Position numbers and translations under genes: made by a program. A stretch of DNA of 64,000 nt from Dillenia suffruticosa (lineage: Eukaryota > Streptophyta > Magnoliopsida > Dilleniales > Dilleniaceae): contig JAVTVX010000020.1 of assembly GCA_033439265.1 (NCBI GenBank), forward strand, positions 18,308,001-18,372,000, written 5' to 3'. Below are positions 1 to 58,507 of the stretch, in pieces; position 1 is the stretch's first letter, and each line of letters starts with the position of its first letter. The notes under the pieces are model-generated. The model ran no database searches and was not told where the DNA came from. It saw nothing but the letters and a program-made list of their open reading frames with translations.

Positions 1-25
1 GCGTGCCAAGAGGTACAGGCCAAGA
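1..25. other. sequence left of the inverted-duplication breakpoint
   Basis: Too short to classify. It holds two copies of GCCAAGAGG and does not match the Mutator-like element that continues at the corresponding point of the other arm, so the duplication breakpoint lies at about position 26. Confidence 0.5.
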
Positions 26-215
26 GGAACGTGAAACCTATGGGGGATAGATTGCTATTTACCCTTCCATTTAAAAACCTCATGACTAATGCATGCTTAT
101 GATCATCTTGAACAATTGTGCACATTTCATGCTTATATCTCACCGAGATGAGCAGTCTATCCTTTTCAAACTTGTCGTAGTCTTACTTTTATGTGAAATG
201 TGTATACCTGGAGTG

Positions 216-233
216 TTGCCCTTTTTTTTTTTT
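216..233 (-). repeat. copy of the ultra-short A-tailed insertion found at 15343-15361
   Basis: A T-run followed by GATATAA sits between two copies of GAGTGTTGCCCTTT (also seen as AAGTGTTGCCCTTT). It is the duplicated counterpart of the insertion in the right arm, with a different homopolymer length. It must have been present before the inverted duplication. Confidence 0.6.
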
Positions 234-401
234 TTTTGATATAAGTGTTGCCCTTTCCCTTTTTTTTTTTGGGGGGGGGGGGCTTCTGTTTGGTTCTTTC
301 TATTTCACATACATAAAATTGTAGAGGTAGAATTTCATCCTTGAAAAACTCTTTACATTAGTGAGGTTTCCGTGTCTGATGGTGATTTCTTGTTATTGCA
401 G

Positions 402-680
402 AATATATGACCTCTGCATGAGTGATAATTCATCCTTCTTAGGAATGGAGCAGCTGCAACAATTTCCTCATTTACAGCAATGGCTTGGCCTTTCAGTGGC
501 CGGTACTGTAGAGCTTGGCCACATAGTAGAGTCGCCAGTTATCCGAACAGCTACTTCACTTGTTCCTTTGGGATGGACTGGTAATCCGGGTGAGAAGAAT
601 GGGGAACCTCTAAAAGTTGACATTACTGGTTTCGGTTTGCATCTTTGTACATTGGTTCATGCTCAAGTAAATGGTAACTG
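402..680 (+). pseudogene. duplicated copy of lipase-GTPase gene exon 10
   Basis: This 279-bp segment is flanked by the same TTATTGCAG acceptor and GTATCATAC donor as exon 10 of the large minus-strand gene, and its frame is open. The product is the middle-region segment that includes the residues [17 protein letters not shown]. One visible change in the exon turns the IYELC of the source into IYDLC. No neighbouring exons of the gene accompany it, so it cannot make the protein. If transcribed it would be antisense-complementary to the parent pre-mRNA. The alternative, an assembly artefact, is discussed in the findings. Confidence 0.85.
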
Positions 681-1880
681 GTATCATACTCTCCCTCTAC
701 CAACTGATTCTTTTCTTTCAAGAGTGGGCTCCTTATATCGTAATTGATTAGTGTTATGAATTTACTTTGGTGAAGAGCTTTGATGTTTGGATAATTTTGT
801 GTGATTTTTTATATGTATCTGCCATTTTTAGGTAATTAGAACTTTTCTCTTGTTGGGTTTGACCAAGCAAGCGGGAATTAGCCTTACTTAACTATAGTTA
901 AAATTATAGGTTAGTCACTCCTACCTTAGTTCGAAGGTCACAACTTGTATGACAGTTGAACCAAGAAGAAAAAAAGAAAGACCGTCTGTTTGCGTCGAAA
1001 AAATACTAATTATCAAAGAGGTTTCAGGAAATGTCTTAGTTTGTCATGAGCAAAAGGTTCAGAAAGATAAATACTTTTTTAATCTGGAAACAAGAATGCC
1101 GTTAGAAGAAAGAGGAAAAAGTGGTATATTTGCTACTACCCTTGGAGTTGCAAAACGCACAATTAGTACAAAGTCAGGGAGCCATGTTCTTGTCTGGATA
1201 TTTCTTGGACATTACAATTTTCTACCAGTTACTAATCCCTTGCTGACTTGAAAGTGAATCAAGAGATGGGGAGGGATGTCCACACCAATTGTGTTTGATC
1301 ATGATTTTTTATGAGGGAAGGGGAAGGGTGTCCTTTTTTTCGGTTTTTTAGGGGGGGGGGCACAAGAGGGCAATCTTTCCTGGTCCTCTCCAGTCCTGAA
1401 TAAATTTTCCCTTTCTATCTCGCTAACCTTCAAAACAAACAAGACGGTATGACTTCAACTTTCCCCCTCCCTCTTTTGACTTGGGGTAATGAATTCAATC
1501 AAGAAGATGATTTGTTCTCTCCCCATCCAAAAAATGCCTAGATGAACGTGATTGTGTCTCAGCCTTCTCTCATTTTTTTTCTTCTTTTTTCTCCTCTCCC
1601 CCCAACGGCATAAGGAGGCTAGTTTTGTTTACCCATGGTTGAAAACTGCAATGAGTTCAAGCCCTTGAAACAAAGAATTGAGTATACACACCTTTTATCT
1701 TGTGAACATGCATTGGTTCGGATCAATTGTTGATTGTTGAATTATTCATGCCTCTTGTGAATTATGTACTGCTTAACTCTCAGAGGAAGGAATATATCTT
1801 TCCTTATGGCTCTGTACCTCTTGGAAAACAAGGAAGACCACTGACCCTGGGCATTGGAGATACATTTACGCTGCACTACA

Positions 1881-3444
1881 ACGTGATGGTATTTTCGTGC
1901 GTGCTGTTGTGGGAGAGCAGGCCCTCGTAGGCGAAGGCCCACCTACTGTATTTACGTCATAATACACACCCTCAGGCCTCAGCCCCACCCCCCCCAAGAA
2001 AAATGGAAAAGAAAAAAAATAAAATCCGAATTCCTGGTGCAAGAGAAAAGGGACTCCTCTGGTAAACATGCGGGCGGCTTGGAACCGAACTGTAACGGTT
2101 CCGGTTTAGCCCAAAAAATGAAATTGAAATCGATGTAACAATTCAGGAAGAATAAAACAGTTTCAGCTTTAGTTTTTTATTCTTTTTGTTTTATTTTATT
2201 TTTAATGGGGGTTTTTACTTTTAACATTTTTTATGATTTTTAAAATGATTTTTATGGTTCTTTAATTATTCAATTATGTATTTTAGTTTAATAATTATAA
2301 ATCAAAGCTAAATCAATTTTTGGAATTGAATTAGAACCGGTTTTATGGTTCCCGTTTGATTTTTCATAACTGGTTTTGGCTTCAAAACTGAATCAATGGG
2401 CACGTCCACCCTTTTGGGCAAAACAAAGTGCTCCTATAAAACCTCAAAATCATCGACCCTCTCATTCTGTGACTGTAGTAATAAAATATTAAATTTTTTT
2501 AATTAAGATTTTAATTTTGAGTTTTGAAAATATAAAAATAGTTATTGAGAGAATCGAATTAATTGAATTTTTAGTTATCAGTGTAAGTATGAAAAAAATA
2601 AAATAAAACTCCAAAATTCAATACTTTTTGAATGGAAGATGGTATGATATAAATGAGACTAAAATGCATCAACGTTGGGTTTGAGACAAAGCCCATTGGA
2701 GTGCGAAAGGAGAAGATGCTATTTTGTTTTTTTTTGGTGAAAAGGAGAAGATGCTATTCCAACTCCTCATCTGTTCCTAGAGGAACAACAAGTCAACTAG
2801 TGGTATGTGGCAGTGGAAATAGGGAAGTTAGGGTTGGGAAGAGCAGATATATGCTCTGTGAACAAGTCATCCTCATTACATTCACATATTCTGTATTTTA
2901 GGTCCAAACTTACGTCGGCTAATTTACTCCCAGCCCGATTCCCATATTTATATCACTTTTTTGAGACTTGATATGTGTAAAGCATGATTTCGAATTTATG
3001 CGAGAATTCTCAATTGTCACTCTTTGAGTGGTGTGGATAAAATATAGACTCAAAATTTGACAAAATTACTAAAAACTGAGTGTTGGATCTTATTTTGGAT
3101 GTTTAATTTCTAGTCCTAAGAATTAATATGAACAAAAAGCATACATTATGATCGGGATGGGGTTGCTTTGTCCTAAAATTTTAGTCTAGTCGATTGCCTT
3201 GGCAATCCTTCCCTAATTTCATAAAGCTGTTTGTGTTAAGAGGCCTATAATCGTCCACAGCTATCCGAAAGATTTAAGGTCCATTTATGTTCGAGTAAAC
3301 GGTGATGGAAACACTGTTGCAGCTTTTGATATGTTTGTTCCAAAAGTGAGCTCAATGATTGTTACACATAAGGGTCTGTTTAAACAAACGTCTTCTTCTG
3401 AGTATATATTTTTTGTGAACATTTACGGGTTGGAACATTGATCA
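1881..3444. other. intergenic; contains a hAT-like terminal fragment and one micro-insertion
   Basis: Positions 1881-2080 are a moderately GC-rich stretch with a C-run that I do not recognise. Positions 2085-2415 are AT-rich and framed by GGTTCC/GAACCGG blocks, ending in GGGCACGTCCACCC, which resembles the subterminal sequence of decayed non-autonomous hAT elements (low confidence). The rest is AT-rich and shows no supported gene apart from the ultra-short insertion at 2724-2740. Confidence 0.4.
2724..2740 (-). mobile_element. ultra-short A-tailed retroposon insertion (17 nt)
   Basis: The insert reads TTGTTTTTTTTTGGTGA and is flanked by perfect 18-bp direct repeats, AAAGGAGAAGATGCTATT, at 2706-2723 and 2741-2758. 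On the minus strand it is TCACC followed by an A-run. This is the structure expected from target-primed reverse transcription stopped almost at once after the poly(A) tail. Confidence 0.6.
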
Positions 3445-3457
3445 GAGAAAGCTAAAA

Positions 3458-3547
3458 AATGACCGAGTTATATCTCAACTCGCACTGTTTCCTTCCCTAA
3501 TGTCTCGTATTCGAATCTCTCCTATATATATTAAAAAAAAAAAAAAA
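3458..3547 (+). mobile_element. short tRNA-derived SINE-like element
   Basis: A 90-bp unit has a B-box-like GTATTCGAATCTC followed by a 15-nt A-run. The flanks GAGAAAGCTAAAA (3445-3457) and GAGGAAGCCAAAA (3548-3560) look like a 13-bp target duplication with two mismatches. The A box is weak. The alternative is a chance tRNA-like match beside a poly(A). Confidence 0.45.
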
Positions 3548-3560
3548 GAGGAAGCCAAAA

Positions 3561-4499
3561 TCAGGAGCGAATTAATGTGCTTAGTACAAGGTCAGGACTT
3601 TCTACTATTTTCCTAATCTAATATGGTTGATACTGGATTTGATTGAGAGACCTTGAAGCCTAAAAGCATGTTCAGTGGAAGACTTGCTAAACTTGTTCAA
3701 AGAAAAAGACTTGCACTTTGTCATTTTTCTCTTGACTTGCAATCACAAGTCACACCGCAGCCTAAAAGTCTTGTGCACTATTATTGCCTCAGACCGGACA
3801 TTGCCTGTTTGTCATGTAACTACTCCAATTTTTACATGAAAGTCAACTGGAAAGGCATCATTTGCCAAAATCAAGATAATGATAAAATGAGCTTTAAAGG
3901 AGGAAAAATTTGAGACGCGTCATGCATTTTCAATGACACTAATAACTTGCACTAAATTTAAATGCAATCCTATGGCCTCGACTACTTCCTTTATTTTACC
4001 CATCTAAAGAAGCAGCAGCAGAAAACTCTTAATCCTTTTTTTTTTGGCTTCTGGTTTTCAGGATTACGGAAATGGGTCCAGAAAGAGAGCAGTAAGAATG
4101 GTACCTGGATCTTCGAAGGCATGGAACTGTGAGACACAGTCTTTAGCCTTGCATTCGACCTAATGGTTCTCTTTGCCACAGGCCTCGCTGATGTCAAAGA
4201 AATCATGCATTCCTTCCCAAAAAGTTATGGCAAAGCAAACTGCTAAGAGATTTGGCAGGGAAAACTAATACATGGACAGAGCTATGTTGACAAAGGAGAG
4301 TATGATTTTAACTCCGAGAAAGACTGAAATATGCATGACTGAAGCATCAACATTGCAACCAACTTACAGGTGTACATACGTGTATATAAAGATTAGAGTG
4401 AAGAGAACATGTACAACTTAAAATGTAAGACACCATAAATTTGTTCATTCATTTATAATAATAAGAACCAAGCTTGGCAGGACTAAAATCACATGATTT
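3561..4499. other. intergenic, downstream of the DUF26 gene
   Basis: No supported gene. Positions 3690-3860 resemble 6740-6910 on the other side of the DUF26 gene. Shared pieces are a TTTTTCTCTTGACTTGCAA-like block, AGTCTTGTGCAC, and an AAAGGCATC block. This suggests a diverged duplication flanking the gene. Confidence 0.4.
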
Positions 4500-5264
4500 T
4501 CATGGTTTTACAAGTACCTTATAAACAGAAGTACTAGCAGAGGTGTTCTGTTGATCCAGAGGAAAGAAAAAAGGATACAGCTCATACCTAACATAACAAC
4601 TACTATATAGTGCGCGACATCCCTTGCGATCTGGACAAAAAGAAGGAAAATTACCAACAGCTATGGCAGTGCACTGAGCGCAGGACAGTGGTGGTAGATC
4701 TCTAGTGCATTGAGCCAATGCATAGAGCGTTAAGAAGGGTGACAGTTGGGTCTCTCCTTTTCCAAGCCCTTTATTTGCAGGCTTGGTGGCCTCTGATTCT
4801 ACATCATCCAGTAGAGACCCTAGTTTCTCGTTGAAGGTTTTCGGGTCTGTCACATTCTCAACATTGATATAGAAGAGACCAATGGTTGTGTCAACTTGAC
4901 CAGTGAAATCTTTTGTGTCATATCTTAGAAAGCAATAGTCATACCAAATTCTCGCATCGTCTTGTGTTGGACAACGGTCACGGATTTGCTTTGCTGCGTC
5001 TTGTATGCAGCTAGTGCAATCCTTTTTATCCACATCTCCTCTGCACTGTGCCAATCCGTAGACCTTCTCATCGCCTTTGCCAAAGGATGTTGCGACATAG
5101 CCATCTTGTGGAGCTTTTGATACTAACTCAGCCAACAAATGATCAATATTGGCTGATAATTTGGCTCCAACAACTACGTTATTATTGCAGACATTCCATA
5201 ATGGGTCATCTGCAATGCAATTGCGCAGTAAGAGGAGGAAAAGCAGAAAATAGAAAAAACTCAT
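4500..5264 (-). CDS. cysteine-rich repeat secretory protein with two DUF26 (Gnk2/stress-antifungal) domains
   Basis: Intronless, 254 residues, starting at the ATG at 5262-5264 and ending in TGA at 4500-4502. An upstream in-frame extension exists, but I chose this Met because it is followed directly by a signal peptide (residues 1-18, a Phe/Leu-rich core). Two DUF26 domains follow, each with the diagnostic C-x8-C-x2-C: Cys74/83/86 (CRGDVDKKDCTSC) and Cys186/195/198 (CTRDLPPLSCAQC). Likely N-glycosylation sites are NVT at 137 and NTS at 240. There is no transmembrane or kinase domain, so it belongs to the secreted CRRSP type rather than the receptor-kinase (CRK) or plasmodesmal (PDLP) types. 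Known members act in the apoplast; ginkbilobin binds mannose and inhibits fungi. The exact ligand here is unknown. Length fits the family's usual size of about 250 residues. Confidence 0.93.
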   Translation of the reverse strand: MSFFYFLLFLLLLRNCIADDPLWNVCNNNVVVGAKLSANIDHLLAELVSKAPQDGYVATSFGKGDEKVYGLAQCRGDVDKKDCTSCIQDAAKQIRDRCPTQDDARIWYDYCFLRYDTKDFTGQVDTTIGLFYINVENVTDPKTFNEKLGSLLDDVESEATKPANKGLGKGETQLSPFLTLYALAQCTRDLPPLSCAQCTAIAVGNFPSFCPDRKGCRALYSSCYVRYELYPFFFPLDQQNTSASTSVYKVLVKP

Positions 5265-5320
5265 GTGGATGTGTGTTTTTTGGCTCAGTAGTGGGTTCTC
5301 TTTGAAGACTTTTGCTTCTA

Positions 5321-5330
5321 ATATATTGTA
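5321..5330 (-). promoter_or_regulatory. possible TATA box of the DUF26 gene
   Basis: On the minus strand this reads TACAATATAT, about 57 nt upstream of the chosen ATG. That spacing is short but possible for a plant gene with a brief 5' leader. It is a sequence match only. Confidence 0.3.
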
Positions 5331-6902
5331 AAAAGCTGGAATAGTAGTGGATGTGGGGATATCTAAGCAGACTTTCTTGACAATTGTGTGCAAATTGGAG
5401 GGTTGAAAGGAACTGTCGTTCACAGATATTTCTCCTTGACACCTCATAAACACATTCCAAACCTAAAATGGAGATTTTTCCATCTTCACAGGTGGAAGGT
5501 AAAGGGAACTTATTTCTGTCACCATATACTAGGTTTATCTTATCCGCTCTTTGGAGAGAACTAAACCAAAAGAGACAATTACCGCGAGTGATTGGGAAAG
5601 CATTTTTCCCTAGTATGGAGAAATTATCCAATAAAACGGGAACATGCTCACAGTTAATTGTTTGGATTTGTGTAGGTACTTGGAAACTTGTCCTGCCAAA
5701 AAGTTTGTCTTAAGTTCGCAAGAAGCATGAACAAAAATATGCAATTTGCTGTGGGAATTGTGTTGCAGGACAGAAGCATAGAGTAAACAAAACACATACC
5801 GCGTAAAAGAGTTATCATCTTCGATTGTTTGTCAATTCACTAGAATCTTTCACTTGGATATCTGAGTCATTGAGAAAAAACAATTGAACTCTATTAGTAC
5901 ACATGTTTTCCGACAACTAACTACATCGTACCCAACCTTTTTTTTTATGTGGTCAAAATGAATAAAATTTTCTCAAAAAAAGATATTTGGTATATCATAA
6001 AGCAGTTATAATTCTTTGTAACAAAAAGATATTTTTATCCTTACTCATAATTAGTGAAGGGTAAGGCAGATTATTGATATTGAAATATTATTTTTCTTTT
6101 GTTGCATAAGAGTCACGAAAATCGCGAAAATATACCTATCCACAAAAGTTCGAACACTAAACCTTAGGGAATATATTTGAACAGTAGCTTTTTACTACTC
6201 GAGAATCCCTACAAGGACGATATTGAAATATCATTAACTTACATAAAAAGATATTTAATAAAAATCTTAGCGATTCTAGCCAGCCCTCTCTTCTCATTCA
6301 CATAGGAAGATCAAAGTCATGTCTGCAATGATAAATTGGCATTTCTTTTCGGATATCCCTCGCACAAAGTTGTTTCTTTGCATGCCCTTTTTTTGTTTGG
6401 GGGGGGGGGAGGAGAAGGTCTTAGAGGAAGGCCATGCATCTTTTTCGTTTATTTCTGTTAGAAATGTCAGAGACAATTAGGGTAAAATTTTACAGCGTGT
6501 GTAGCATTATTTCGCTTCTGTCATTATGGCAAAGGGTTCCCATGGTTCTTCTTTTCTACCAATTCTCGTAACCCAATGGTTTTATCAACGAGTATTAGCT
6601 CTATTCCAACGTTTGCTGTCCTCTGTCACAAATATGCAGGAAACTGAAACTTGGAACCAGTAATTCTAACTATGGTGATTATGCATTTCTGTCTGCTGGA
6701 TGTCCGAATATTCCATTTCTTGTACTGCTTCTAGAAATTACTGGAGAAAAGCGTGCTAAAAGTCTAAATGACAACTTTTCTTGTTCACTTGACTTACAAA
6801 TCGTTTGAATAGTCTTGTGCACCATTGTGCCTCAATACGCGGTTTCTTTTACTCCTAATTGGAGTCTATTTTTCATGGTATTACTCCAAAAACTTGTAAT
6901 TG

Positions 6903-7021
6903 AAGGCATCTTTATCGAGTGGAGTTGAACACCTTCAAGCTAATGGTGAAACGTCCATTAAAAGGAGGCATCTTCATTGAGTGGAATTTGAACACTTTCA
7001 AGCTAGATGGAACATCCACTG
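6903..7021. repeat. two-copy tandem duplication of about 58 bp
   Basis: The first unit begins GAAGGCATCTTTATCGAGTG and the second GAGGCATCTTCATTGAGTGG. Both continue through an AACACCTTCAAGCTA-type block and an AACATCCA-type block. They differ by several substitutions and small gaps. Confidence 0.6.
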
Positions 7022-7623
7022 GTTGTGATGGGGTGGGGTATTCTCGGGTGGTGCGTATATCTTAGCATAGCAGACTTTCTCGACACATTGGCTCCTTCGT
7101 ATCATGTGCAAAGTGGATAAATCAAGCACCAGATGGATATTTTCCTATTAATGGTATAAAGGAAAACTAGTATGAATTTTTTCCACCACTCGTACGCATT
7201 GGATTATCATATCTCCTGTTTGGAATGCAGAAAACTAGGGATATGATTTGGGATGTCGTTGCTTTGAGGTGATATTGTTGTGAAAAAAAGTTGGAATCGT
7301 GGGCAATCCTACTGATATATTTGTCCAAAGCTTCAATTAGTCAAGAATAATTAGCATTATTAGGACGCGGTTGGTTAATGAATATTTGTTTGAGATTTGT
7401 GCTTTTGGGGTTTTGTGGAAGTGAAGCTTTATTTGCTAGTTTGTCATGAGCGAGGGAAGAGATTAATTAGACTTTAAAGCCCAATTATCTCCCCATGAAT
7501 ACAAATTTTCATATTACCTGAAAGTAAATCCCTATGCTTCTGATTTTGCCATAAGCAAATGTACTTTTGTCAGATCACTAGGCATTACGTCTAAAATCCA
7601 AGTATTATAAGAAGAGTACCAAC

Positions 7624-7648
7624 ATTTACCAAAAAAAATAAATAAATG
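7624..7648 (+). mobile_element. ultra-short A-tailed retroposon insertion (25 nt)
   Basis: The insert is ATTTACC followed by an A8 run and TAAATAAATG. It is flanked by perfect 14-bp direct repeats, AGAAGAGTACCAAC, at 7610-7623 and 7649-7662. The joint between body and tail is ACC-A(n), as in SINEs of this window. Confidence 0.6.
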
Positions 7649-8165
7649 AGAAGAGTACCAACTTTAATAGTACACGCGTTTTGTAAGGACCAAAATCATG
7701 GAGATACAGAGTAACACACTAATCTTTGTGGACAACAGTATGTTAAGATTGAGGAAATGGTGTGAGTTTTAGTTAGTAAAATCTAACCTAAACCCAATCT
7801 GTTCAGCAGTAGATGGCCAAAAGTGCTTTACAGGGACATAAAAGACTAGTGTAGCTCAATTATCCTTCATTTGAAAAAAATTAGTGGTCAAAAAAAAAAA
7901 AAAAAAAACCAAACCTTCAACAAAATCTAACCATCCCCAAGTGAGAAAAATCAAGACCAATTGTGGTAGATCGAAACTTTGTTTCAAATATGCCTAAAGC
8001 TTTCTGTTGCTTTGTAGGTAAGATAGTTTGAAGAGGGTTTTTAGTGGAAGCTCTGCATTTTATCTCCCCAAATTCAAATTTCGCTTCCACTTTGTATGCA
8101 TATTATTTCAGCTTTTCATTATGACAAAAGGGTGGATCCCAGGTATTCCAGAAATGTGATACTGC

Positions 8166-8397
8166 ACTAACGTAGGTTGACTCAACTGGATGTGAGATTG
8201 AATTCCCTTAAACATGATCGAGATTCGACTCCCGTTGGGAGCATCGAGCCCTCATGTGTATGGAGCGTTCCCTGTTGGGAGACCCGCCCTCCGAAAAGGA
8301 ACTATTACAACTGTCGGTCCAGATTGATCGAGACGAAACCCCGGATACCGGGCGATGTCGAAGACATGGTACAAAAAAAGAAAAAAGATAGAAAGAA
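8166..8397 (+). mobile_element. tRNA-derived SINE with target-site duplication
   Basis: A 232-bp element. Its head has an A-box-like CAACTGGATGTGAG and, about 35 nt later, a B-box-like GAGATTCGACTCC, as in a pol III promoter. A GC-rich unrelated body follows, and it ends in GAAGACATGGTAC plus an impure A-tail. The flanks AGAAATGTGATACTGC (8150-8165) and AGAAATGTGATGCTGC (8398-8413) form a 16-bp target duplication with one mismatch. The single mismatch suggests a fairly young insertion. A 76-codon open frame crossing it is coincidental. Confidence 0.8.
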
Positions 8398-8413
8398 AGA
8401 AATGTGATGCTGC

Positions 8414-9346
8414 TGCTTCTTTGTTAACATTCTTCTTGCCTAGTTGTCCGAGATAATAGGTATAGGTATAGGTATAGCTTGACTTTGACTATTGTGGCCC
8501 TAGATTGCCACCACAAATAAATGGAAAAACCCGAACTTGGAACGAATAGTTCGACAATGGTCATATTGCATGCGGTCATTGAGGTCACTAGTCATTCTAA
8601 ATCTAAATTCAGCCATCTAATATTATACACACAGCCTTACTCCATTTAAGATAACTAAAACTTGAGGATTGACAACTAGAAACGGTGGAAAAGCCTGGGT
8701 CAGTATTAGTAGTCTAAACCTTGGAAAAAGGGGGTTCACCTTATTATGATGCCTGTTAATTTGTTCTGCAATTCATTTGATTAGAAGTCACACCAAGTGC
8801 CAGACCTAGTGCTGCAAAATCTTTTGAATCCAATGAAGTTTTAGGCATTAAATTCATCAGGATGGCCTATCACATGTGGAATGGCATTTTCCAATAGTTC
8901 ATCCTAAAGATGGTTTTGGATATGAGGACTCCCATATCCAAACAGGCATTATCCTCAAGAATTGACCAGAATATTCCCAACTAGACATTAATAATTTTAT
9001 TTTTTTCTGGGTCAGTCAAAACAGATTCATTCCTTTATGTTGGAAATTATTCCTTCCCAGTGGGAAATTATTCTTTCCCGTCTTCAGAGTAACATGCCAA
9101 CCCTAATCTAACTTCATATATATTAAAACTGTGGGAAAGATGGAATACGCAAATTTGACCATGCATAAATTGAATATTCATGATACATAGAAGGTGCACC
9201 TTTTTGCTTATAATAAACTTTAATGTGAAAACTTGTGCATGAAGTAGATATTGACTACTATGAACCTATAAATCCAGAGTGGCACGGGTACCTGAATTTA
9301 CAGCTGAGAAGTACACCTCATCCTAACAAAACAAAATTTCTGATTT
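8414..9346. other. intergenic, 3' flank of the lipase-GTPase gene
   Basis: No gene seen. It includes a short TATAGG tandem at about 8457-8476. Possible 3'-processing signals for the minus-strand gene, including ATTAAA near 9217-9222 on that strand, lie in the last 250 bp. Confidence 0.4.
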
Positions 9347-9535
9347 TCAAGGTTTTCTCAACGCGGATGCAGCACCCATGACAACTGCCAAAACAATGCC
9401 TAGACCAGCACCAAGGGAGGCTCCAACCGCAGCAGCAGTCATAGAGCTAGTCTTGGCCTGAGAATCTCTATCAGCATCTACTCTCATTGCATGCTCTAGT
9501 GCCAACTCCAACAAGAGCCTATCATGAGCAAATTC
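9347..9535 (-). CDS. lipase-GTPase gene, exon 14 (C-terminal membrane segment)
   Basis: Starts [20 protein letters not shown] and ends in a Gly/Ala/Val-rich hydrophobic stretch followed by ALRKP and TGA at 9347-9349. The glycine-rich segment with a basic end is consistent with a tail anchor or membrane-inserting helix. Confidence 0.9.
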   Translation of the reverse strand, partial: EFAHDRLLLELALEHAMRVDADRDSQAKTSSMTAAAVGASLGAGLGIVLAVVMGAASALRKP

Positions 9536-12500
9536 CTGGTAAGAGGGACAGAGGGAGGGAGAGTGAGAGCAAGTATATTTTCAAAAGCAGGAGGCCAGCT
9601 TAAAATGAATAGTAATTTATCATGTGCTGCCTTGAGGAAACAAATTCCCACATCATCTTATATTTGATAAGAAAAAATTTCAACTAAAAAATATTACACA
9701 CTAATGATTGCCAAAGTGATAAAGTTCTAAATAAAAAGCAAGTCAACTACTGAAAGACTACAATAACTAATTTTGGTAAACTCATTACTAGGGGACTTTG
9801 TTAAATAGATTTCAGTAATACAGGGTAGTAACAAGACAACAAAAGGTCAATAATATTTTATAAGCTTCCAACAACAATCTGTACCCAAACAAAGGCACAC
9901 TCTGGTTTGATTCTGTCAATGTTTATTTGTTTTTCATTTGCTTATAGACAACATTTTTAAATATTCATTGATATGCAATTCATCTTTATATACCAAAAAT
10001 TTGCACTCCTAAAATAGCTAAAATATACAATGAGGATCAGACCTTAATTAATTAGGTGAGTCAACAAAATTTGACTAGTTTTTTTTAAAGCATGGATCAT
10101 TTGCTTTTCAAAATAAGGTGCCTAACATGTTGCAGAACTTGTCGTTTGCATATTTGAAGACTTTTTATATCACTAACAAAGAGGTTAAATCATGTATACC
10201 TGCCGAGAGGCCTCCTCCTGGCTACGAAGTACATGGTGGGCAAGCTGACAAAAAGCAGTAACCCCTTCTACAGGCAGAATAGGAGCTTTCCTCTGAAAAG
10301 GCCTCCGAACAAAGTTGATTGGAGCAAATATAAGCTTCTGAGGAGATATTCTTTCCTTAGAAATCTCTTCGATTTCACTCCAAGACAAAGTACTTCCAGC
10401 ACTAGGCAACACATATGGACAGGAATTGATTACTTCAGCAAAACTCGGAGATGCTTGATAAGCTTTCAGTACAGCATCAATTGCAGCTCGTTGCTGGTGT
10501 GCACTAACAGAAAATTTGTTGGTTATAGCTAAGATCCAAGGAATCCCAAGTGCCTTCGCTTCATCCAACAGAAGAGAAAGGGCTGGTTGTTGCTGCAATG
10601 CATCTGAGTGGTTGCAGCAAGGTATTCTGTGAGATAAATTATGCACAAGAACAATTAAATCAATCTTCCTATGAAGGTCGCGAATTCCCATCCATAGTTC
10701 ATCCTTAAAATGAGAGACCTCTGTGTTAAGCTCCTGCAAGAAGTGAAAGAAAAAGGAAATTTGAGATTGCATCATCCTGGAAAGCAGGGGTAACAAAAGG
10801 AAAGGATAAAGGAAAAGAAAATCCATTCTAGCGCTAGGATAAAAGCATAATTCAAATTCTACATAATATTACCATCTAAAGTATAGACCAGTTCAATCAT
10901 AGAAGTGAAGGATTTCAATTCCGATTCCCATTCATCACAGTGATCAAGTGCTTATAAACAAGGATCAATTCGGTTCAATTCATCCAACTACTAAGAAAGT
11001 TAACTAAAACAATTTGATTGCTGAAATTAAAGCATAACAAAGACTGTTGCAAAATAGTTCAGCACACTATCCCATGACACTATCTAATGAAAGTAACAAT
11101 GTGAAAAGTATATAACCTTCCTCTTTAACTTTAGAAAGTTTAGAGCCTAATAATATTAATCCGGTATTAAGATCCTTCATCAGTACAATTTTTATCTTGA
11201 AAAGCAGTTTGAGGGAGGAAACTCCCCAAATGACCTACACTGTGAGTGATACGAGAAAATTTGCTGTAAGAAATTAATCTTTGGCAAGCTTAACCAACAA
11301 CCTTAAGAACTGAAGTGGGCAATAAATCTAGTATGCCTCGAACACTCCTGATACTGCACTTCTAGCTTGGACGACTATTTGAGAGGGGATACACACCCAA
11401 GATAACCTTCCAGTCAATAATGTTGTCTGGGCCAATAGACATTTATATCAGCTTTGCACAAAACCATAATTATCTTCTTCTCACTTGCCTCAGACTAGGA
11501 GGGAGTAGGGAGGTATGTTGCCCATTTTGAATCGATCTAGGGTTATGACTGACTGGCCTATGAGCTTTATGGATAATGGCCATTCAATGCAATGGTGTAC
11601 AATAAGAGCAGGGACATTGATCTAACTGGCCATTTTAGTTGGTACGTTTAAATAGGCGCTCACATTTCATGGCAAGGCACGAGGGCACTAAGACACAATG
11701 TGAGAGCCTTGTTAAAGTTTAAGCTTATTTGACTTGCTTCTGAGATTCTTTGCCCCCATTTTCTCCACTTCTTAATCTTACACCGTAAAATTACATGTAA
11801 TCAAATAGCCCACTGCAACAAAGAAATCAAAGTGTTGCAACTGACACTCTTAATTAAGTTATAACATACAATATCACGCACACCAGATACCCAATCTTAT
11901 CAGCAGATACTTTGCATCATAAAGAAAGGGCAGGGTCGAACTAGAAATGTAAAAAACAGAAACACCATGGAAAACTGTGTAACTACAGGAAATCCAAATT
12001 CAAGAGAGTGAAACCTGCAAATTCACTCCCTTCGAATCTAGGTAGCACAAACCACCAGCAATTCCTTCCCCCAAGTCATCCTCTAAGAGCATATTCTCAA
12101 TTTTGGTAGAGGATGAGAATTTTCCTTGTCCCAAAATTGCTTTGAAAAGCGAGGTTTTACCAGCACCCTGCACAATCCATAGGCCATGGTGTTAGTGAAA
12201 CAAAATTATGTGTTTTACAGGCTTTAAAGTTCAAAACGTTGTGTAATACATAACTACAGATACCTCGAGGCCAATTAGTTTCACCCTACGAGTTCTGAGT
12301 TGAACCACCTTGGAGATCGTATTGAAATCACTAATGCAGTAAATGATAAAATTGGTCAAACCTTCGGGTTGAATACAATGTCCATCATGAATAGTTCCTC
12401 TTTTGGATTCCCCACTGTCAGTAATTGAGTCAGCATCAATAGAAGGAAATGCTGATATCAATGAATCTGATATTATCTGATGCTTCGGGGGCTGTCTCAA

Positions 12501-15500
12501 GGGAGAACCAACTAATATCTGCATTTTTTGTAACTCTGGCTGTAATTCATTGTTTGAGGAATAATTAGGTGCAGAAGGAAAGGACTCCACCGTCGTTGCA
12601 CACCTGAATGTCAAAGTAATATGACACCATTACACATCATATCTGAAAATACTTTGGCAGATATTTTAAGAGAGAAAAAAAAAAAGCCACACAAATTTCA
12701 TAAATATTACGACCACACATGCAGATAAATTTTAAATCAGATGATTTTTTATAGGTGCTTTTTTGAATTGCATTTCCTATCAAAAGGAAATGACAGATCA
12801 CTCGAAAGGCATGATGCAGGGTTCAAAAAATCAGCTTGCATCTTGCCATCATCCATGGTAGTTGGCTGCTCATAGAGCGAAGGAAACATAAATAGACAAG
12901 GAAGCATATAGATTAACAGATTATTATATATAGATTAGCTGCTTCCAGAATAATCCACAGTAGGTGGCTGCTCATAAAGCAAAGGAAACATAATACGAAG
13001 TTCAACAGAATGTCCCTTAACAGGAAAAAGAAATCAAAGCTCATCTCCTAGGAAAAGCATTCAAGTATCCAAAGGTAATTTAGCCTACGTGGAAGAGCAT
13101 TCAAGTAGCCAGAGGTAATTTAGTCTACAGGGAGAAATAGAAGTGAACCTTAGAGCTTCATTAACCAAAAGGTTCCAAGTTTTTCAACCAATCAGAGAAA
13201 ATAATTATGGCCATAAATCAAGACAACCATAAGAAATGGCACCACATACAAAGTAACAGAACAAGATTGTGAGAAAGCAAGACATTCCACAACCTGAGCA
13301 AACTAATAAAAAACCTGAAAAAGCAGGTGCCATATACATATACAATAACAACAAGTATAAAATGGCTTGATCTTCAGTCTTCCACTCCTATTTTTTGAGA
13401 CATGGATCTCTTTCTGATGGAAACATTACTCGTCTTAAAATAGGCAGTAATGAATTTAGAATGATCATACATACATACTATGAAGGGCAGTAGAACAAGG
13501 CTTTTGGGAGGCCAAAGGGAGGGTTATTCAAGGAAGCATCCAATGAATGGCAGGGTTTTCCCTTGGAAGGCCAATAGGAGAAATAGCCTGTAGAAGCATC
13601 TCAGACTATGATAGTCGTAGAACAGTGTTTACAATTGACATTCCCATCAAAGGTTTTCTCTCTAAACAAGATTTCTTGCCCAAATGAAGCACACTGGAAT
13701 TTAAAAAGCTGTAGTGCAGCGTAAATGTATCTCCAATGCCTAGGGTCAGTGGTCTTCCTTGTTTTCCAAGAGGTACAGAGCCATAAGGAAAGATATATTC
13801 CTTCCTCTGAGAGTTAAGCAGTACATAATTCACAAGAGGCATGAATAATTCAACAATCAACAATTGATCAGAACCAATGCATGTTCACAAGATAAAAGGT
13901 GTGTATACTCAATTCTTTGTTTCAAGGGCTTGAACTCATTGCAGTTTTCAACCATGGGTAAACAAAACCAGCCTCCTTATGCCGTTGGGGGGAGAGGAGA
14001 AAAAAGAAAAAAAAAATGAGAGAAGGCTGAGACACAATCACGTTCATCTAGGCATTTTTTGGATGGGGAGAGAACAAATCATCTTCTTGATTGAATTCAT
14101 TACCCCAAGTCAAAAGAGGGAGGGGGAAAGTTGAACTCATACCGTCTTGTTTGTTTTGAAGGTTAGCGAGATAGAAAGGGAAAATTTATTCAGGACTGGA
14201 GAGGACCAGGAAAGATTGCCCTCTTGTGCCCCCCCCCAAAAAACCGAAAAAAAAGGACACCCTTCCCCTTCCCTCATCAAAAATCATGATCAAACACAAT
14301 TGGTGTGGACATCCCTCCCCATCTCTTGATTCACTTTCAAGTCAGCAAGGGATTAGTAACTGGTAGAAAATTGTAATGTCCAAGAAATATCCAGACAAGA
14401 ACATGGCTCCCTGACTTTGTACTAATTGTGCGTTTTGCAACTCCAAGGGTAGTAGCAAATATACCACTTTTTCCTCTTTCTTCTAACGGCATTCTTGTTT
14501 CCAGATTAAAAAAGTATTTATCTTTCTGAACCTTTTGCTCATGACAAACTAAGACATTTCCTGAAACCTCTTTGATAATTAGTATTTTTTCGATGCAAAC
14601 AGACGGTCTTTCTTTTTTTCTTCTTGGTTCAACTGTCATACAAGTTGTGACCTTCGAACTAAGGTAGGAGTGACTAACCTATAATTTTAACTATAGTTAA
14701 GTAAGGCTAATTCCCGCTTGCTTGGTCAAACCCAACAAGAGAAAAGTTCTAATTACCTAAAAATGGCAGATACATATAAAAAATCACACAAAATTATCCA
14801 AACATCAAAGCTCTTCACCAAAGTAAATTCATAACACTAATCAATTACAATATAAGGAGCCCACTCTTGAAAGAAAAGAATCAGTTGGTAGAGGGAGAGT
14901 ATGATACCAGTTACCATTTACTTGAGCATGAACCAATGTACAAAGATGCAAACCGAAACCAGTAATGTCAACTTTTAGAGGTTCCCCATTCTTCTCACCC
15001 GGATTACCAGTCCATCCCAAAGGAACAAGTGAAGTAGCTGTTCGGATAACTGGCGACTCTACTATGTGGCCAAGCTCTACAGTACCGGCCACTGAAAGGC
15101 CAAGCCATTGCTGTAAATGAGGAAATTGTTGCAGCTGCTCCATTCCTAAGAAGGATGAATTATCACTCATGCAGAGTTCATATATTCTGCAATAACAAGA
15201 AATCACCATCAGACACGGAAACCTCACTAATGTAAAGAGTTTTTCAAGGATGAAATTCTACCTCTACAATTTTATGTATGTGAAATAGAAAGAACCAAAC
15301 AGAAGCCCCCCCCCCCCAAAAAAAAGGGAAAGGGCAACACTCTTATATCAAAAAAAAAAAAAAAGGGCAACACTCCAGGTATACACATTTCACATAAAAG
15401 TAAGACTACGACAAGTTTGAAAAGGATAGACTGCTCATCTCGGTGAGATATAAGCATGAAATGTGCACAATTGTTCAAGATGATCATAAGCATGCATTAG

Positions 15501-18500
15501 TCATGAGGTTTTTAAATGGAAGGGTAAATAGCAATCTATCCCCCATAGGTTTCACGTTCCACCACATACTACCCCTATATTTCAAAAATAGCCACATATC
15601 CCCTTGTGATTTTCAAAAAATAAGGGATGGAAATGAACAGACAGACACGTAGATTGAGAAACATGCATGGGAACTTCCTTTTTACCAATTCTACCGTCTG
15701 CTGCATCCCCAACCTCCGCTTCATCCTCAATCACACCAACCGCAGAACAGAGAGAGAGAGAGAGAGTTTTCTATGAAAGTCCGAGAAGAAAACCAAACAC
15801 CCTTATCAAAGCAAAGCTTCCGGTGTCGATCTTCACCCTCCCTTTCCTCTCTGGCATAGTTCTCGATGACTCCTCTGATGTCTCGTTCAATCTGCGCACT
15901 AGCTTTTCCTCAAACCCTTCACTAAAGCTCTCTTACACTCCATCTCCAAACTCCACTTCCTCTCCTCCTTTCTCTCTCTCTAAAAGTTGGGGTTGGCCTC
16001 TTTGGGTTCTGGAGATGAAGAGGGCTCTTGAGATTGTAATTTACCCTATTTTGACAAAAATAAATAAATAAAAAAATGGAAACTTTGACAAAAAAATATC
16101 TAAAAATGTTCTCACCATTCTCTCTCTCTCTCTCTCTCTCTCTCTAAAAATATCAAAAAGATATCATCTCCTCTCCTAAATTTCACTCTCGAGAATTTCT
16201 CTAAATTTTATTTTCTTAACATTTTATCACCATTTTCTCACTTCCTCTCCTCCTTTCTCTCTCTCTCTCTCACCCCACAACTCCCCTATCACCATCTCTG
16301 CCAATTTCCGTCTCCTCTCGCCAAACCCATCTCCATCTTTCTCTCTCCTCCTCAAACCCCTATTTGGAGACTCTTCTCTCTACAAAAATACCCTCTTCAT
16401 CAAACCCAAACCCTAATCCCAATTCTAAAAAATCTCGAATGGGATTCTTATTGTGGGTTGAATTTGAATAAGGCATGGAAAAAATGGGGTTTTGTCTAGT
16501 TTTTCTATGTTGACGAGGACATCTTTGCCTATTTCTGGGAAAAATGTGGTTGTCAATTGCAAGTGGGGTTTGAATTTTTTTGAGAAAACAAAGTTTCCTT
16601 ATTTGACAATTAACAAAATTGGGGTTGAGAGGGTTGTGAAAAAATTGATGGTTGTATGTCTCATTTACTCTTATATAGTGGTACAAACACGCTCTCCCTC
16701 CATGCTTGAGACATTTTCTTAGTTTGCAAGATTTTGTTAAAAAGATGCATTAACATTCCTATCTCCACTTCATCCAAACATTTCTATACCTCAATGGGGA
16801 TGCCACCGGGTTTTATGGCTTTATTATTCTTCATTTTTCTTAAAACCTCCTTTACTTCATGAGAACAAATCTTGCATTTTAAATCCCTATTGATCTACTC
16901 TACAAGTATTGTGATATCGCCAACATCTTTTATACCCCAACATTAAAGAGATTATCAAAATAATCACTTCAACGTTTTCTTATATTCTCATTCCTTACAA
17001 GAACACTATTGGTTTCACTTTTAATACACTTAACACCATTTAGATCTTTTTCTTTCTTCTCTCTTAGTTTGGCAATTCTATAAATCTCTTTTTCTCCATA
17101 TTCAGTTTCTAATTTCTTATATAATTTGTTATACAATTTATTTTTTAATTCGTGAATAACCGTTTTGCAATCTTATACTTTTCAAATGTATTGTTACCTC
17201 TCTTAGTTTAAGGTTCTATAACACTCTCGTTTGGTTCGATAGCAGCTTGAATTTTCTCATTCCACCACCATGACTCGTAGCCTATTGGAGCCCAACCTTG
17301 AGATACGCAAAGAATCTCTTTACCTATATTTTTAATATTATTAGACATTTTTATCCACATAATTTTCGAATCATCACTAGCGGATCAGGTTGCTCCTTGC
17401 TTTAATTAGTTTTTTAAAATCGTCATTTTTTTTTTTCAAATTCCACCACTCAATTCTTGACTCTACAAATTAGTGATACTTCTTTTGCCTTAGGCACACA
17501 CACATATAAAACTAAAAGTCTATGTTGAGTTGTTACACTCTCACCTGCTATAACCTTACAATCTCTACAAATTATTCTATCGTCCCTCCTAATGAGGAAA
17601 AAATCTATTTGACTGGCATTTAACCCACATCTATAGATAACTATGTGCAATTCTCTTTTCTTAAAAAAAGTGTTTACAAGAATCAAATCGAATACTATAA
17701 CAAACTCTAAAATGGTGCCCCCCACCTCATTCCTACTTTCAAAGCCAAAGTCCCTATGTACGACTTCAAATCTCACATTATTCTCACCTACACGTCCATT
17801 TAAATCTCCTCCAATAAATAATTTTTTCCCACTAGATATTATTTGTATAAAATCATCAAAATCTTCTTAAAATTATTGTTTGCTAATTGCATTTAAACCT
17901 ATTTGAGGTGAATAACACTAATTAAATTAATTACGTTTCCTCTGCTAACTAGCTAGACAAGTAAAATTCCATCTTTATTCCTTCTTATCTCCGCTACATT
18001 CTCTTGTAAATTCTTATGGACAATTATTCCTATCCATTTTTAGTTCTATCCTTACCTATCTATCAAAATTTGTGGCCTTGACTCTACTATTCTATCATTC
18101 TCCCCCACCCACTTAGTTTCTTGGAGACACAATATTAATCTTCCGTATAGTCATTATTTCTCATCTCTCCCCTAACTTACGAGTTAAGGATCTTATGTTT
18201 CAAGTAACTAAACGAATCCTATTTTTATAGGCTAACTTTTTTCCCACATCCGTCCACATAAATGTGGGAACCCTTGCCTATTTGACACCACATCCAAGCG
18301 GCGATATAACGCGTCACTTTTGGGCGACGACCTAAAAGCCCTTACTAACTTGTCACTACATCCGGGATCTGATGTAGCACGTCGCTGAGAAAAGAATGCC
18401 CTAACGGATTTCCTATCTTTATCTCCCATTTTGATTTTGACAAGAGGTTTTACGCTGGCTATCAACCTACCGCAACGCTCCTCCTTTACTCGGATTTGGA

Positions 18501-21500
18501 ACCAACCATGGCGGAGTTGGCTGCGGAAAAAATGAAAGTGGAGAAAATGAAGGCAAATAATGAGGGTAATGCAAGCAAAGGAGAGTGGAGTTTTTAAAGG
18601 AGATGTGTTTTTGGGTGAAGAGAGATATTGAGATTTTGGAGAGAGAACATGGAAATGAAGAGAGTTATAGAGGAGATGAATTGGGGGCAATTTTGGCCAA
18701 AAAAAATAAGGTTTTAAAATTGGTGAAAGTTCTGCACATTTCCTGCGCGTGCTTCTCAATCTTCGTGAAGTCTGTCCATTTCCGTCACTTTCCACTTTTT
18801 GAAAACCACAGGGGGATATGTGACTATTTTTAAAATATAGGGATAGTACGTGATTGAACATGAAACCACAGGGGGATAAATTGTAATTTACCATAAATGG
18901 AACTGCAATTGTCATTGAGACATTGTATGTGCTGAACCCATCATCATCACCTCCACAGAAGGTGAACCCAGAGTCAAAAGAGTCAATTGCTAAATGAAAG
19001 CACCGCTGTGGGCCAAAAGATTAATGTAAGGAATCAGATTTTATGGGGAAAAAAATAAAAAACCATAAAAGGGGAACAACGTGTGATGGCATAGCCATTA
19101 CTTGGTTAGAAAAGAAGTGATCCTCTTTGGAAGCCTAAGGCGATGAAGAAAGGCTTTTTGGTCAACAAATAAATGCCCATAGTAGTAACTTAAGATTTTG
19201 TAGTAATTCAGTACCATTTAGAGTGGGAATAAGTCACTAGAAATCTGCACTTTCCAAAAATTTTTCATTTCTTGAAGTTTTTAGTTTTACATATAAGTTT
19301 GTTTTGTGTAGATTCTAGTCAGTTAGGAGTCCTCAAACAACTAAGTCCTAAAAAGGTATCGAGTTCAATGATATTTGAGCATATAATATTTGCAATGACT
19401 CAGACAAGCTTTAAAAGATTTTGGATTGTCATTTGTTTGTTGTAGCACTTATCAAGAAGCCAACCATCTACTTATACTTCTCTATGGTTCATGCCTCAAG
19501 AATTTATAAAGATTACAGCTTAGATGAGTTGATGAGCGATTGGAGAGCAATTACCCATAAGATTATATTTTATCCTTCCATTTCTAAGGGTTTTTCATCC
19601 ATGAAAGTTTTTACTGTATTCTTCTTCATCTAATACAATTTATTTTTCTATCTAAAAATTCATAACGAGCCAAAATAGAGGTGGGATTGGACCGGTTCCA
19701 GCCCAGAAACTGGCCCATCCGACTCGTTTTAGGCCGGACCGGTAACCGGCCAGGGGCAACAGTAACCCGAAACCAGACCGGCCACTACAGTAACCACACC
19801 GAGAATCGAGAACCAAGAACCAGCCCAGCACGGGCCTGAAACTGGCACAGAACCGGCCCGGGCCTGGAACTAGCACGCCGATTCCAACGGTCACTGAAAC
19901 TGGCCCAGCCCAGCCCGCCCGGTTCCAACAACTCCTCTCTTTTTTTGAATGTTTTCAATTTTACCCTTCCCAACAGTTATAAAACAGATAGTTTTAGGGG
20001 TATTTTGGTCCATAAGATCAAAACATTTTCCTATAAATAGATCATAACTCATTTCCAAATCTCACACAACAAAATTTCATACTCTCACAATCTTCTTCTC
20101 TCTACTATACTCTCTCAAAATCTCTACACAACAATTCATTTCCAATTTCCTACAACTCTCTCTACCTACAACATTTTCTTCTCTCTCACACATTTAACAC
20201 GACACATCTCATAATCTCCTACTAATCACACCACCAACAACTTACAATATCCCTCAAAATTTGATAAGATTTTAACATTAGAAACTCAAATTATTCATGA
20301 TTTGGCTATAAACTGTGATTTCCGATCAAATCAATAATATTTTATTTTTTGCAATTTTACTTTTTTTGCATATTTAATTCATTCGCATTAATTTTTTTGG
20401 CATATTTAAACTTAAATTTAAAAAAAAATGGTCGGAACATATTTTTCATAATCTTTCCAGCAATCTCCTCTCCCCCCATTTTCATTTTTCCAAGAGAACA
20501 TTCCAGAACACAAAGATATTGATATTGGTTTTAAAGAAAATAAACCTAATAATACACAATCTACCACAACATGCACTAAAAAAGACGATTTCAATGCATG
20601 GGATTATTTTGTTAAAAATTATGAAGAGCAAAGAGTAACTTGTAAAATTTGTCAACAAAAATATAAATTTATGAAAGGTTGGGGAGCGGAGACACTTAAG
20701 AGACACATAGTAAGAGATTACCCAAATAAATTATCTCAAGTTAGGCAAACACAAATCGTCACCGGGGGAAATGTCACCGTACATTTAGATATAATGCAGA
20801 GACAAAAAAAATAGAACAAATAGAATGGATAACACATAAAGAAATACCATTTAGTATAATAGAATGTGAAATTTTTTATAAATATGTACAAAAATATTTA
20901 CAACTGGGTTACCAAAAAAGTAGTAGGAAAACAGATAGTAGGAGGTCACTAGATCAATTTCAAATAATGAAAAATGCTTTAATTGCAACTTTTATGGCCA
21001 CTAATTGTAAATTTTCAATAATTTCGGATAGTTGAAAAGCAAAATATCAAAAATAAAAAATAAAAAAAAATAAAAAAACATTTTAGTGTTGTAACATGTC
21101 ATTAGATTAATGATTGATGGAACTTAGAAAAAAGAATTTTAGCTTTTTTAATATTGAGAACTTCTACATTCAGGTGCTAATATAACTCGAATAATTACAA
21201 ATATTTTTCATGAATATGGTATTGGTGATAAAATATTTTGTTTGCTTCAAATAATGCATCAGCTAATACTAATGCCATTAATACTTTAAAAACTGTATTA
21301 AATGGAATATTTTTTCATAATAGATATGCATGTCATATTTTAAATTTGTGTTAAAAATGATTTGGAAGCCGCAAAACTAATTTTACAATCTATTCATGAC
21401 TTAATTTTTCAAATTAGAAATTCCTCGGCAAAGCACAAAAAATGAGACATTTATGTACTTTACATAATGTAAAATTTAAATGATTTAAATAGGTGAAACT

Positions 21501-24500
21501 CAACTTATGATATATTACAAGGTGTACTTCATTTCAAAAATGTTTTAATTGAATTTGCAACTTCTAATTATGAATATGGTTTCATTGATAATAGCGTTTT
21601 TTATTTTGCAAATACACCAATTCAATTATTGAAAATTTTTTACACATATACAAATTTATTTGCCGAGATTTACTATCCAACTACTCATTTGATATTATCT
21701 AATTTTTGTAAAATTTGTTTCGTATTTAATCAATTTGAAAATGAAGATAGGTTTAGTGAAATTGTTCAACTAATGAAAATAAAATTTTAAAATATTGTGA
21801 AGAAAATCCTATTTTGTATTTGGTAGCATGTGCTTTACATCCACGTGTAAAACTTGAAGGTGTTGAAACTCTAATAGTTTGTTTTTTTTTTGTTAATTTT
21901 TTAACCGAAATATATATTAGTGCACAACATTTAAAAACAAAAATATCATATACTTTACAAAGCATGTTTACATTTTACGAAAAGAAACATAATAATATAA
22001 GCGGTAGTGATGTAGGTGGTGGTGGTGGTAGTGGTAGTAGTAGTTCAACAATTCATTCATTTTCATTTAATCATTTACATGTCAGCAAAAAAACAAAAAT
22101 CAACTACCTTGTCGTTGTAACTTAATGAATTGTTTTTATACCAACAAACACATTGGCTAGAAGGATGTGACGATGACGATCATTTTAATATATTAGGTTG
22201 GTGAAAAAAATAATGCAACTTACTATCCAATTTTGGCTAAAATGGCCAAAGATATGCTAACCCCCCCGATGTCCACAGTGCCATCGAAAAGTGCTTTCAG
22301 TGCAGGTGGTCGAGTTTTTTCAAAAAAGCATACAAAATTGGCAAACAACACTTTGGAAGCATTAATTTGTATAAAAGATTGGTGGGATACAAAAAAAAGA
22401 GACAAGCCATGGAAATAGTTCGATGGTGGAAGATGAAGAAGAATAATAAATTTGTAGTGCATAAGAAAATTATGCAAATATGAAATTTAAAAAAAAAAAA
22501 TTCATTCTTGAAAAAATCAAAAAAGTATAACCATGTTGAATTAGTGAAGTTGAAAATCCAAGTGAAGAACTTCATAGTGGACGTACACCGAATTTGATGG
22601 AACCAATCTAAAAATTTCATGTGTACGCTTTTTTTATTTTTGAATTTCAGGCAAAAAAAAAAAAACCGGTGAATCAATCCAACATGGCCCAATTCAGTGG
22701 GCCTGGTTCACCAGGCTGGGCCAGTTCCAAGGAATTTTTTTGGGAACGGCCTGGCACGGCCAAGTAAGGCCTCGGAACCGCGGCCGAACCGGCCCACGGT
22801 TCCTGGGCCTGTCCCGGAACCAACCAAAACCAGACCGGTCCCACCACTAAGCCAAAAAGGAGATTGAGAGAACTAATGGGTGAATCAGAGTTTATTATTT
22901 TGTTCTTATGAAAAAACAAAGAAACAAAGATTTTTATTTTGTTATTGTTGCTGACGGTAAGTTTGCATAGACCTTTCTTGTCTTCTTCTAGTTATCTAAG
23001 AACCTTCCATCCGTAAATTCTTACATCCTTCTTCTAAAGTTTTAGCAGCTAATTCTTTTGTCCTATCAACAAATTCAGCCCTTTGTAAGCCGGTGTTCCC
23101 TCACATTCTCAATACCTATTTTACGAACATTTCCCATAGCTTTTACATGGTATTTGGCACGAACAACAAGAATTTGGTGGATTAATCACATTTTCCATAC
23201 CTATTGTACAACATCTTTCCATAGCTTTTACCAGTATTTTCAATACCTCAGATTAGTTTATTGTGGCTACATTCAAGGGGACAACAAGAAGTTAGGGGAT
23301 TAATCAGCAACACAAAGGGGATTGCGGAGGAGGGAAGGAGAGAAAACATGATAAAGAAAAAGATAATGCGTTCCAGGTAACATGATACGCATATCAGGAG
23401 AAACGAAACCAAAGTGCAAAAAATAAAATAATATATTTAAAGCAACCAATATAGCCAAAGACTACCAATGTTAGAACAGCAATGAAGCTGAAACAAGAGT
23501 AACAAGCAAAAGACAGACTATGAGACATACCAGAATATTACCTCTGAAAACGAGACCTATATGACCTCATTGAATGTGACTGAAATCGTTGTCTAAGTTC
23601 AGCAATCACAGATCTGACCTGAACATATCTTTGCCAAAAGAAGCAAACAAATCAAGAGATTCCTTCAGATATTACAAACCCACATCCCCCAGCAAATAGA
23701 AGAAAAGTTAAGACATGCAGCTAAGAAAAAATATAACAGAATCCACAAAAGAAGTGAATAAGCAGGTTCATACCGATGTCATCTTCGAATACTCTGCACC
23801 CGATAAATGTTCAACTGATGAATTCCCCAGTAGATAAAGCTGTTATAAAAGTGGGTTTCTTTATTCCATTGTCATGACAATAATATATGATTAAAGATAA
23901 ACAGAGGATTCCCTTCAGGAACATCTGATAAAATTGGAATGAATCGAAGAAGATATATATTGGGGCAAAAAATTGATACAACGAAGATCAGAATAGCCCA
24001 TGGGCTAGGATGGCATGCATAAATCGAAAAATGGTTCTGAAAAGATGTATAAAGCAAAAATCATCATCGTGCCTGCAATATTAAATATTTTCAAAACTAC
24101 ATTAAAAATTATACAAGAAATCAAGAACCCTTATCCCCCACCCCAAAAAAAAATATATATATATATATATTACAAAAACTTTGTTAAGAAAACAAGAAAC
24201 TGGCTTGTAATAAAGGACATTGAAAGTCATAAAGCTCTGAAAACTTCATAGTACAAAACAGCGCCATTTGAATTTTACACACACTCAACTAATGGTTGTC
24301 CTAAGAAACAAAACAGAGAGTAACTTGTCAAAATCAAATATATAACAGGCCCATGAGTGAAAAAAAGGGAGAAAATAAAAAAAAAAAAGATAATAAAACA
24401 CAATGAGCAAGTCAATGTCAATCTCTTTGCTGTAGTTTTCTACTAGAAAGGAGTGTGCATGTGTGTGTGTGTTCGAGAGGGGGAAGGGAGGGGGGATGCA

Positions 24501-51423: not shown

Positions 51424-51727
51424 TATAACAACTACTAACTATAAGATTAGTAGTTAATCATAATTAATAAGAATAGTTAGTGATTAATTATAGTTGTTAG
51501 GTTAGTTGTTAAAAAATTGGTTAGTAGTAGTTAATAGATTAGTTAGTAAAAATTAGTAGAGTCGGTATAAATAGTAATCTCAACACATGTAATGGACATG
51601 AATTGAAATTGTATTGAAAACCTTATTTCTCTCTCTTGTATTCTCTTTCACTCTCTCTCTAGCTCATTCTCTATCTTTTCTCCATAATCTCTCTCTTTCT
51701 CTCATTTTATTGACTTGGTTCATGACA
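51424..51727 (+). repeat. LTR (right) of the small non-autonomous element
   Basis: Second copy. Its 3' two-thirds plus the following primer-site-like sequence is duplicated in tandem immediately downstream. Confidence 0.7.
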
Positions 51728-58283: not shown

Positions 58284-58288
58284 TTATT

Positions 58289-58473: not shown

Positions 58474-58507
<34 letters not shown>

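Follow-up and report, generated by a model that had tools for sequence, protein, structure and literature searches.

Fragments of plant genes have reportedly been copied as filler DNA in the repair of double-strand breaks, as Wicker, Buchmann and Keller are said to have described in 2010 in work cited in PMC3445842, and the capture of gene fragments by Pack-CACTA, Pack-MULE and Helitron elements is known. In plants, deletions and foreign filler are known to accompany the repair of breaks and of transposon excisions (PMC4423477, PMC3445842, PMC5217109). At 58 excision sites of DNA transposons in rice, the reported fillers measure 1 to 123 bp, with an average of 13 bp (PMC4423477), and in Arabidopsis templated insertions at breaks are attributed to polymerase theta (PMC5217109). 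Here, we describe a locus in a 64,000-nucleotide stretch of Dillenia suffruticosa (C20:18308001-18372000, hereafter the window, with negative positions lying to its left), where part of a putative lipase gene recurs as an inverted copy beside a truncated CACTA-type transposable element. We put at roughly three in four the probability that the copy is filler taken from the nearby gene in the repair of a break in or beside the CACTA element, during which DNA was lost.

A single gapped alignment (1,858 columns, E = 0) paired positions 26 to 1880 on the + strand with 15560 to 13710 on the - strand, exactly the coordinates of the inverted duplication proposed in an initial annotation made without database searches. 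Identical bases were found in 1,840 columns, the others comprising 8 substitutions and, with 10 gap columns in all, six indels, at which an ungapped repeat finder broke the arms into five pairs. Identity, announced as about 99.5%, was 99.57% without gaps (1,840/1,848) and 99.03% with gaps counted. Most of the arm sequence is intron, which in the copy is kept on both sides of the exon; the annotation was therefore right to call this a DNA-level copy, and a retrocopy is ruled out. Also as annotated, the exon is intact: its 279 bp are whole in both arms (14908 to 15186 on the - strand in the source, 402 to 680 on the + strand in the copy), each flanked by AG acceptor and GT donor sites, and the exon of the source arm is in open frame with those that follow. 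The name "exon 10" is the annotation's own numbering. The only difference between the two exons is at position 411, C in the copy and A in the source, which changes Glu to Asp. The 11.8 kb that separate the arms hold a Stress-antifung gene as well as the remaining 3' part of the source gene, and with the stop codon at about 9348 in our exon model, the copy does lie about 7.5 kb beyond it. A search of the 596-Mb genome (37 contigs) with positions 1 to 2000 returned four places; besides the window itself and the source, these were a match of 74% on C17 and, on C35, a piece of 62 bp. No third near-identical arm was found.

Which of the two arms is derived could be read from a MULE-type element located in the intron before the exon (15522 to 18893). 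This element has inverted terminal repeats at 15523 to 15666 and 18892 to 18747, which are about 80% alike, belongs to a family dispersed in the genome (61 first-look candidates, 40 scored), and is flanked by a 9-bp target site duplication, TTCCATTTA, at 15513 to 15521 and 18894 to 18902. The duplicated segment reaches 39 bp into the terminal repeat and then ends: the copy carries these 39 bp at positions 26 to 64 on the + strand, where the genome search also placed 38 bp, followed by one copy of the target duplication at 65 to 73, and the rest of the MULE is not in the copy. Because the copy ends within the MULE terminal repeat and lacks the rest of the element, 26 to 1880 is the derived arm and 13710 to 15560 the source; the MULE inserted first, and the copy was made later. 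In agreement with this, the inner part of the source has a counterpart on C17, where 13482 to 14763 (in the arm itself, 13710 to 14763) is collinear at 79 to 85%. The position of the source end within the MULE terminal repeat could also suggest that the DNA next to the MULE was moved or copied through alternative transposition of this element, but the boundary lies within the repeat, 39 bp from its end, and a 9-bp duplication was not seen at the ends of the copy in the printed junctions, making this explanation barely credible. A Pack-MULE was rejected as well, the copy having a single, truncated MULE end of 39 bp while the MULE, with its duplication, stands at the source. Two LINE-like fragments, about 76 to 82% alike, were noted at 16652 to 17487, inside the MULE, and at 48518 to 49446.

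The left neighbor of the copy is a CACTA-type element that starts with CACTACAAAAAAACAG at -1508 (C20:18306492) and of which the first 1.5 kb are kept. Its family is dispersed (1,649 candidates at first look, with 40 of them scored and 20 loci extracted), and the one relative for which both ends were found, L017, spans about 2.44 kb. The CACTA 3' end motif TTGTAGTG was absent from the CACTA start to position 22452, and the 3' half of L017 had no counterpart to the right of the copy, its matches being confined to the left part, within the terminal repeat region. Alignments to the relatives L014, L017, and L027 reach about -3, -2, and -1, respectively. The last possible CACTA bases are 1 to 3 on the + strand, and the exact end probably falls between about -2 and 3. 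The 18-mer ending at position 3, CAGGCAGGCACGCATGCG, occurs exactly at 34 places in the genome, including this one, and at 88 places with at most one mismatch; when extended to position 7, it becomes unique at that threshold. The 33 other exact places were counted by sequence match, which limits the placing of the CACTA end at 3. Against an end at position 3 also speaks the absence of CACGCATGCG from all 19 CACTA relatives that were fetched (L013 to L031). Positions 4 to 25 on the + strand, or about 22 to 25 bases, are filler, lying outside both the element and the copy. A snap-back palindrome had first been considered at this junction, where -8 to 8 reads GGCACGCATGCGTGCC, but with the 18-mer repeated 34 times in the genome, most of this palindrome is probably repeat sequence. 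The MULE repeat at the source end and the truncation of the CACTA element with its filler, both absent from the initial annotation, together identify the derived copy and suggest how it arose.

The site of the copy could be compared with a related locus on C17, whose collinearity with C20 is taken as the trace of an old whole-genome duplication. To the left of the CACTA start, C17:17005697-17006999 is collinear with -2843 to -1535, and to the right of the copy, collinearity resumes from C17:17007960, facing position 1886 onward, which places the right junction at 1881 to 1886 on the + strand. Between these flanks C17 contains no copy of the arm; on C20, the corresponding interval is taken up by 1.5 kb of CACTA-type sequence together with the filler and the copy. 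Conversely, about 0.9 to 1.0 kb of C17 is without a counterpart at the copy site on C20; the first ~170 bp of this stretch is a dispersed repeat, and the remainder has no other long match. The exon region of the source (14771 to 15523) had no match on C17, which has lost the copied exon. The lipase counterpart there (C17:17047805-17056174), without this exon and without anything matching 14771 to 33908, looks like a decayed partner.

These flanks also bear on gene capture, in which the CACTA element, in the manner of Pack-CACTA, would have taken up the gene fragment and lost its far end later. The copy directly abuts the element, and capture of genes by CACTA is known (PMC3445842). However, no CACTA 3' end follows the copy (TTGTAGTG being absent from -1508 to 22452), the right flank is ancestral from 1886, and the genome search did not turn up other elements carrying the fragment. 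With the fragment not enclosed by both CACTA ends, a Pack-CACTA was rejected, and capture followed by loss is improbable. The junctions, inspected by eye, appear to leave no room for the outer ends of a Helitron, which would start with TC, end with CTRR and a hairpin, and sit between A and T; the copy is bordered by the CACTA element at its left and by ancestral flank at its right, no dedicated Helitron search having been made.

The duplication is recent, as the initial annotation had proposed: only 8 of 1,848 ungapped columns are substituted (0.43%). At 990 positions aligned with C17, the copy differs from C17 at 177 and the source at 174, and after Jukes-Cantor correction, the age of the copy is about 2% of the C17 divergence. 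A Copia element in an intron of the source gene (24717 to 29727, with frames on the - strand) offers a second yardstick: its terminal repeats (24717 to 25157 and 29282 to 29727) differ by 11 substitutions in 441 ungapped columns (2.5%), and since 0.43% is well below this figure, the copy is several times younger than the Copia insertion. When the eight substitutions were polarized by C17, three appeared derived in the copy, including the one at 994, which falls in a poorly aligned stretch, and one in the source; two were undecided, C17 having a third base, and two lay outside the C17 alignment.

Such a low divergence is also the size of ordinary heterozygosity and would suit an assembly artefact, in which the other haplotype's 13710 to 15560 was wrongly joined at 26 to 1880; several of the six indels fall in homopolymer runs, and the polarized changes lie on both copies, as those of two alleles also would. 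On the other hand, this artefact would require a short inverted piece with sharp ends to have come to lie between a truncated CACTA element and a collinear flank, in a window without N, and filler at the junction is not expected of a haplotype misjoin. The eight substitutions are dispersed, and the surroundings are collinear with C17 on both sides. Because the copy stands between the truncated CACTA element and the C17-collinear flank, and because collinearity with C17 is found to the left of the element too, we consider a false join, which the initial annotation had left open, the less likely explanation, indeed an unlikely one.

Repair of a break with the nearby gene as filler brings these features together. 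The CACTA element is truncated, DNA is missing relative to C17, and the junction positions are defined. The copy keeps its introns, has no poly-A tail, and shows no common flanking duplication at its ends; it is absent from the collinear C17 locus, relative to which the target has lost DNA. Within the filler, positions 7 to 19 (CCAAGAGGTACAG) are identical to 13766 to 13778 on the + strand, a site in the intron of the source arm that lies 56 bases from the inner end of the arm, and none of 2,000 shuffles of the 25-base patch matched the source arm as well. This is suggestive, although not proof, of a patch templated by the source intron at the left junction. We propose that, at about 12 kb downstream of the source segment, a double-strand break occurred in or beside the CACTA-type element and that one broken end kept the left 1.5 kb of the element. 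A patch of about 22 to 25 bases, for part of which the source intron was probably the template, would then have been added, and synthesis would have proceeded along the gene from within the MULE terminal repeat (15560), across the exon, to 13710. The new end would finally have been joined to the right flank at 1881 to 1886, the CACTA element losing its right part and the flank possibly up to about 1 kb. The cause may have been an aborted repair after cutting of the CACTA element or an unrelated break, a cut by the CACTA transposase being a guess, and the repair route may have been synthesis-dependent strand annealing or microhomology template switching.

Several observations weigh against this reading or parts of it. 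The 13-base match was equaled against the source arm by 13 of 2,000 real local 25-mers, low-complexity ones included, and against the 20 kb around the source by 7 of 2,000 shuffles and 94 of 2,000 real 25-mers, again with low-complexity ones included; in addition, two places on C16 match 20 filler bases with two mismatches. Part of the 0.9- to 1.0-kb difference may be a gain on C17 instead of a loss on C20. The CACTA element is still present and was not excised, which does not favor a break made by its transposase. The evidence comes from the sequence of one assembled genome. Finally, the 1- to 123-bp fillers at the rice excision sites (PMC4423477) fall far short of a 1.85-kb insert whose donor lies 12 kb away, and because of this difference, strand invasion with longer synthesis is a better candidate than polymerase theta alone. 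On balance, we regard the locus as a well-preserved example of a known, ordinary kind of event.

The 3' part of the source gene comprises five exons on the - strand (15186-14908, 12603-12264, 12167-12015, 10733-10200, and 9535-9347), which give a single open frame of 497 residues with a stop at its end and the P-loop motif GAGKTS. Pfam matches in this part were weak and below the curated cutoffs (ABC_tran and MMR_HSR1, both P-loop families). Upstream, at 32874 to 33255, two open reading frames (ORFs) matched Lipase_3, with E values of 2.1e-4 and 3.3e-4, also below the curated cutoffs, and contain the motif GHSLGG, suggesting that the source gene encodes a class 3 lipase with a P-loop domain. 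Of the seven ORFs or exons initially compared with Pfam, six had no match, and Rfam gave nothing at the gathering score within 1 to 20000. Between the arms, the Stress-antifung gene (PF01657, E = 7.1e-38) lies at 4500 to 5462 on the - strand; it is matched by two stretches of C17 (L009, C17:17034907-17037020, and L034, C17:17024636-17026831), reflecting either a tandem duplication there or the loss of one gene in C20. Frames at 20452 to 22125, inside source-gene introns, resemble by eye a BED zinc-finger hAT transposase. Farther along the window, two tandem units of ~197 bp each, 91% alike, occupy 51551 to 51943, and direct repeats at 58285 to 58699 and 62802 to 63235, 88% alike, surround frames at 60850 to 62775 that by eye resemble Gypsy reverse transcriptase and integrase.

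No function of the copy is indicated. Inverted exon copies near their own gene are possible sources of small RNAs, or of an inversion of the 11.8 kb between them, and nothing here shows either. That the arms silence their own locus, the two exon copies pairing, giving small RNAs against that exon, and lowering expression of the lipase gene, is very improbable; it would call for transcripts made by read-through of the lipase gene or transcripts of the copy started from the CACTA side, and a repair scar would then have turned into a cis-acting regulator of a gene whose C17 partner lost the exon. The interest of the locus lies in its being a young scar in which the donor, the element, the filler, and the lost flank can still be read. 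It would document, for a plant, inverted filler of local origin and kilobase size, and copies of this kind can pass for gene duplications or assembly errors.

The locus thus resembles the filler attributed to Wicker, Buchmann and Keller in 2010 in being an intron-bearing DNA copy beside a transposable element, at a site that has lost colinearity with a related locus. Unlike that filler, it is inverted, its donor lies on the same chromosome at a distance of about 12 kb, and the truncated element is still present. With Pack-CACTA, Pack-MULE, and Helitron elements it shares an intron-bearing gene fragment near or in a DNA transposon, but no pair of element ends surrounds the C20 copy. As at the rice excision sites, a flank deletion and inserted copied DNA occur at a DNA transposon, whereas there the element is gone and the filler averages 13 bp, while here the element is partly preserved and the filler measures 1.85 kb (PMC4423477). 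As in the Arabidopsis work, the junction carries a patch matching a nearby donor, reverse-complement matches included; those insertions mostly match within 100 bp, whereas here the main insertion greatly exceeds them in length and has its donor about 12 kb away (PMC5217109).

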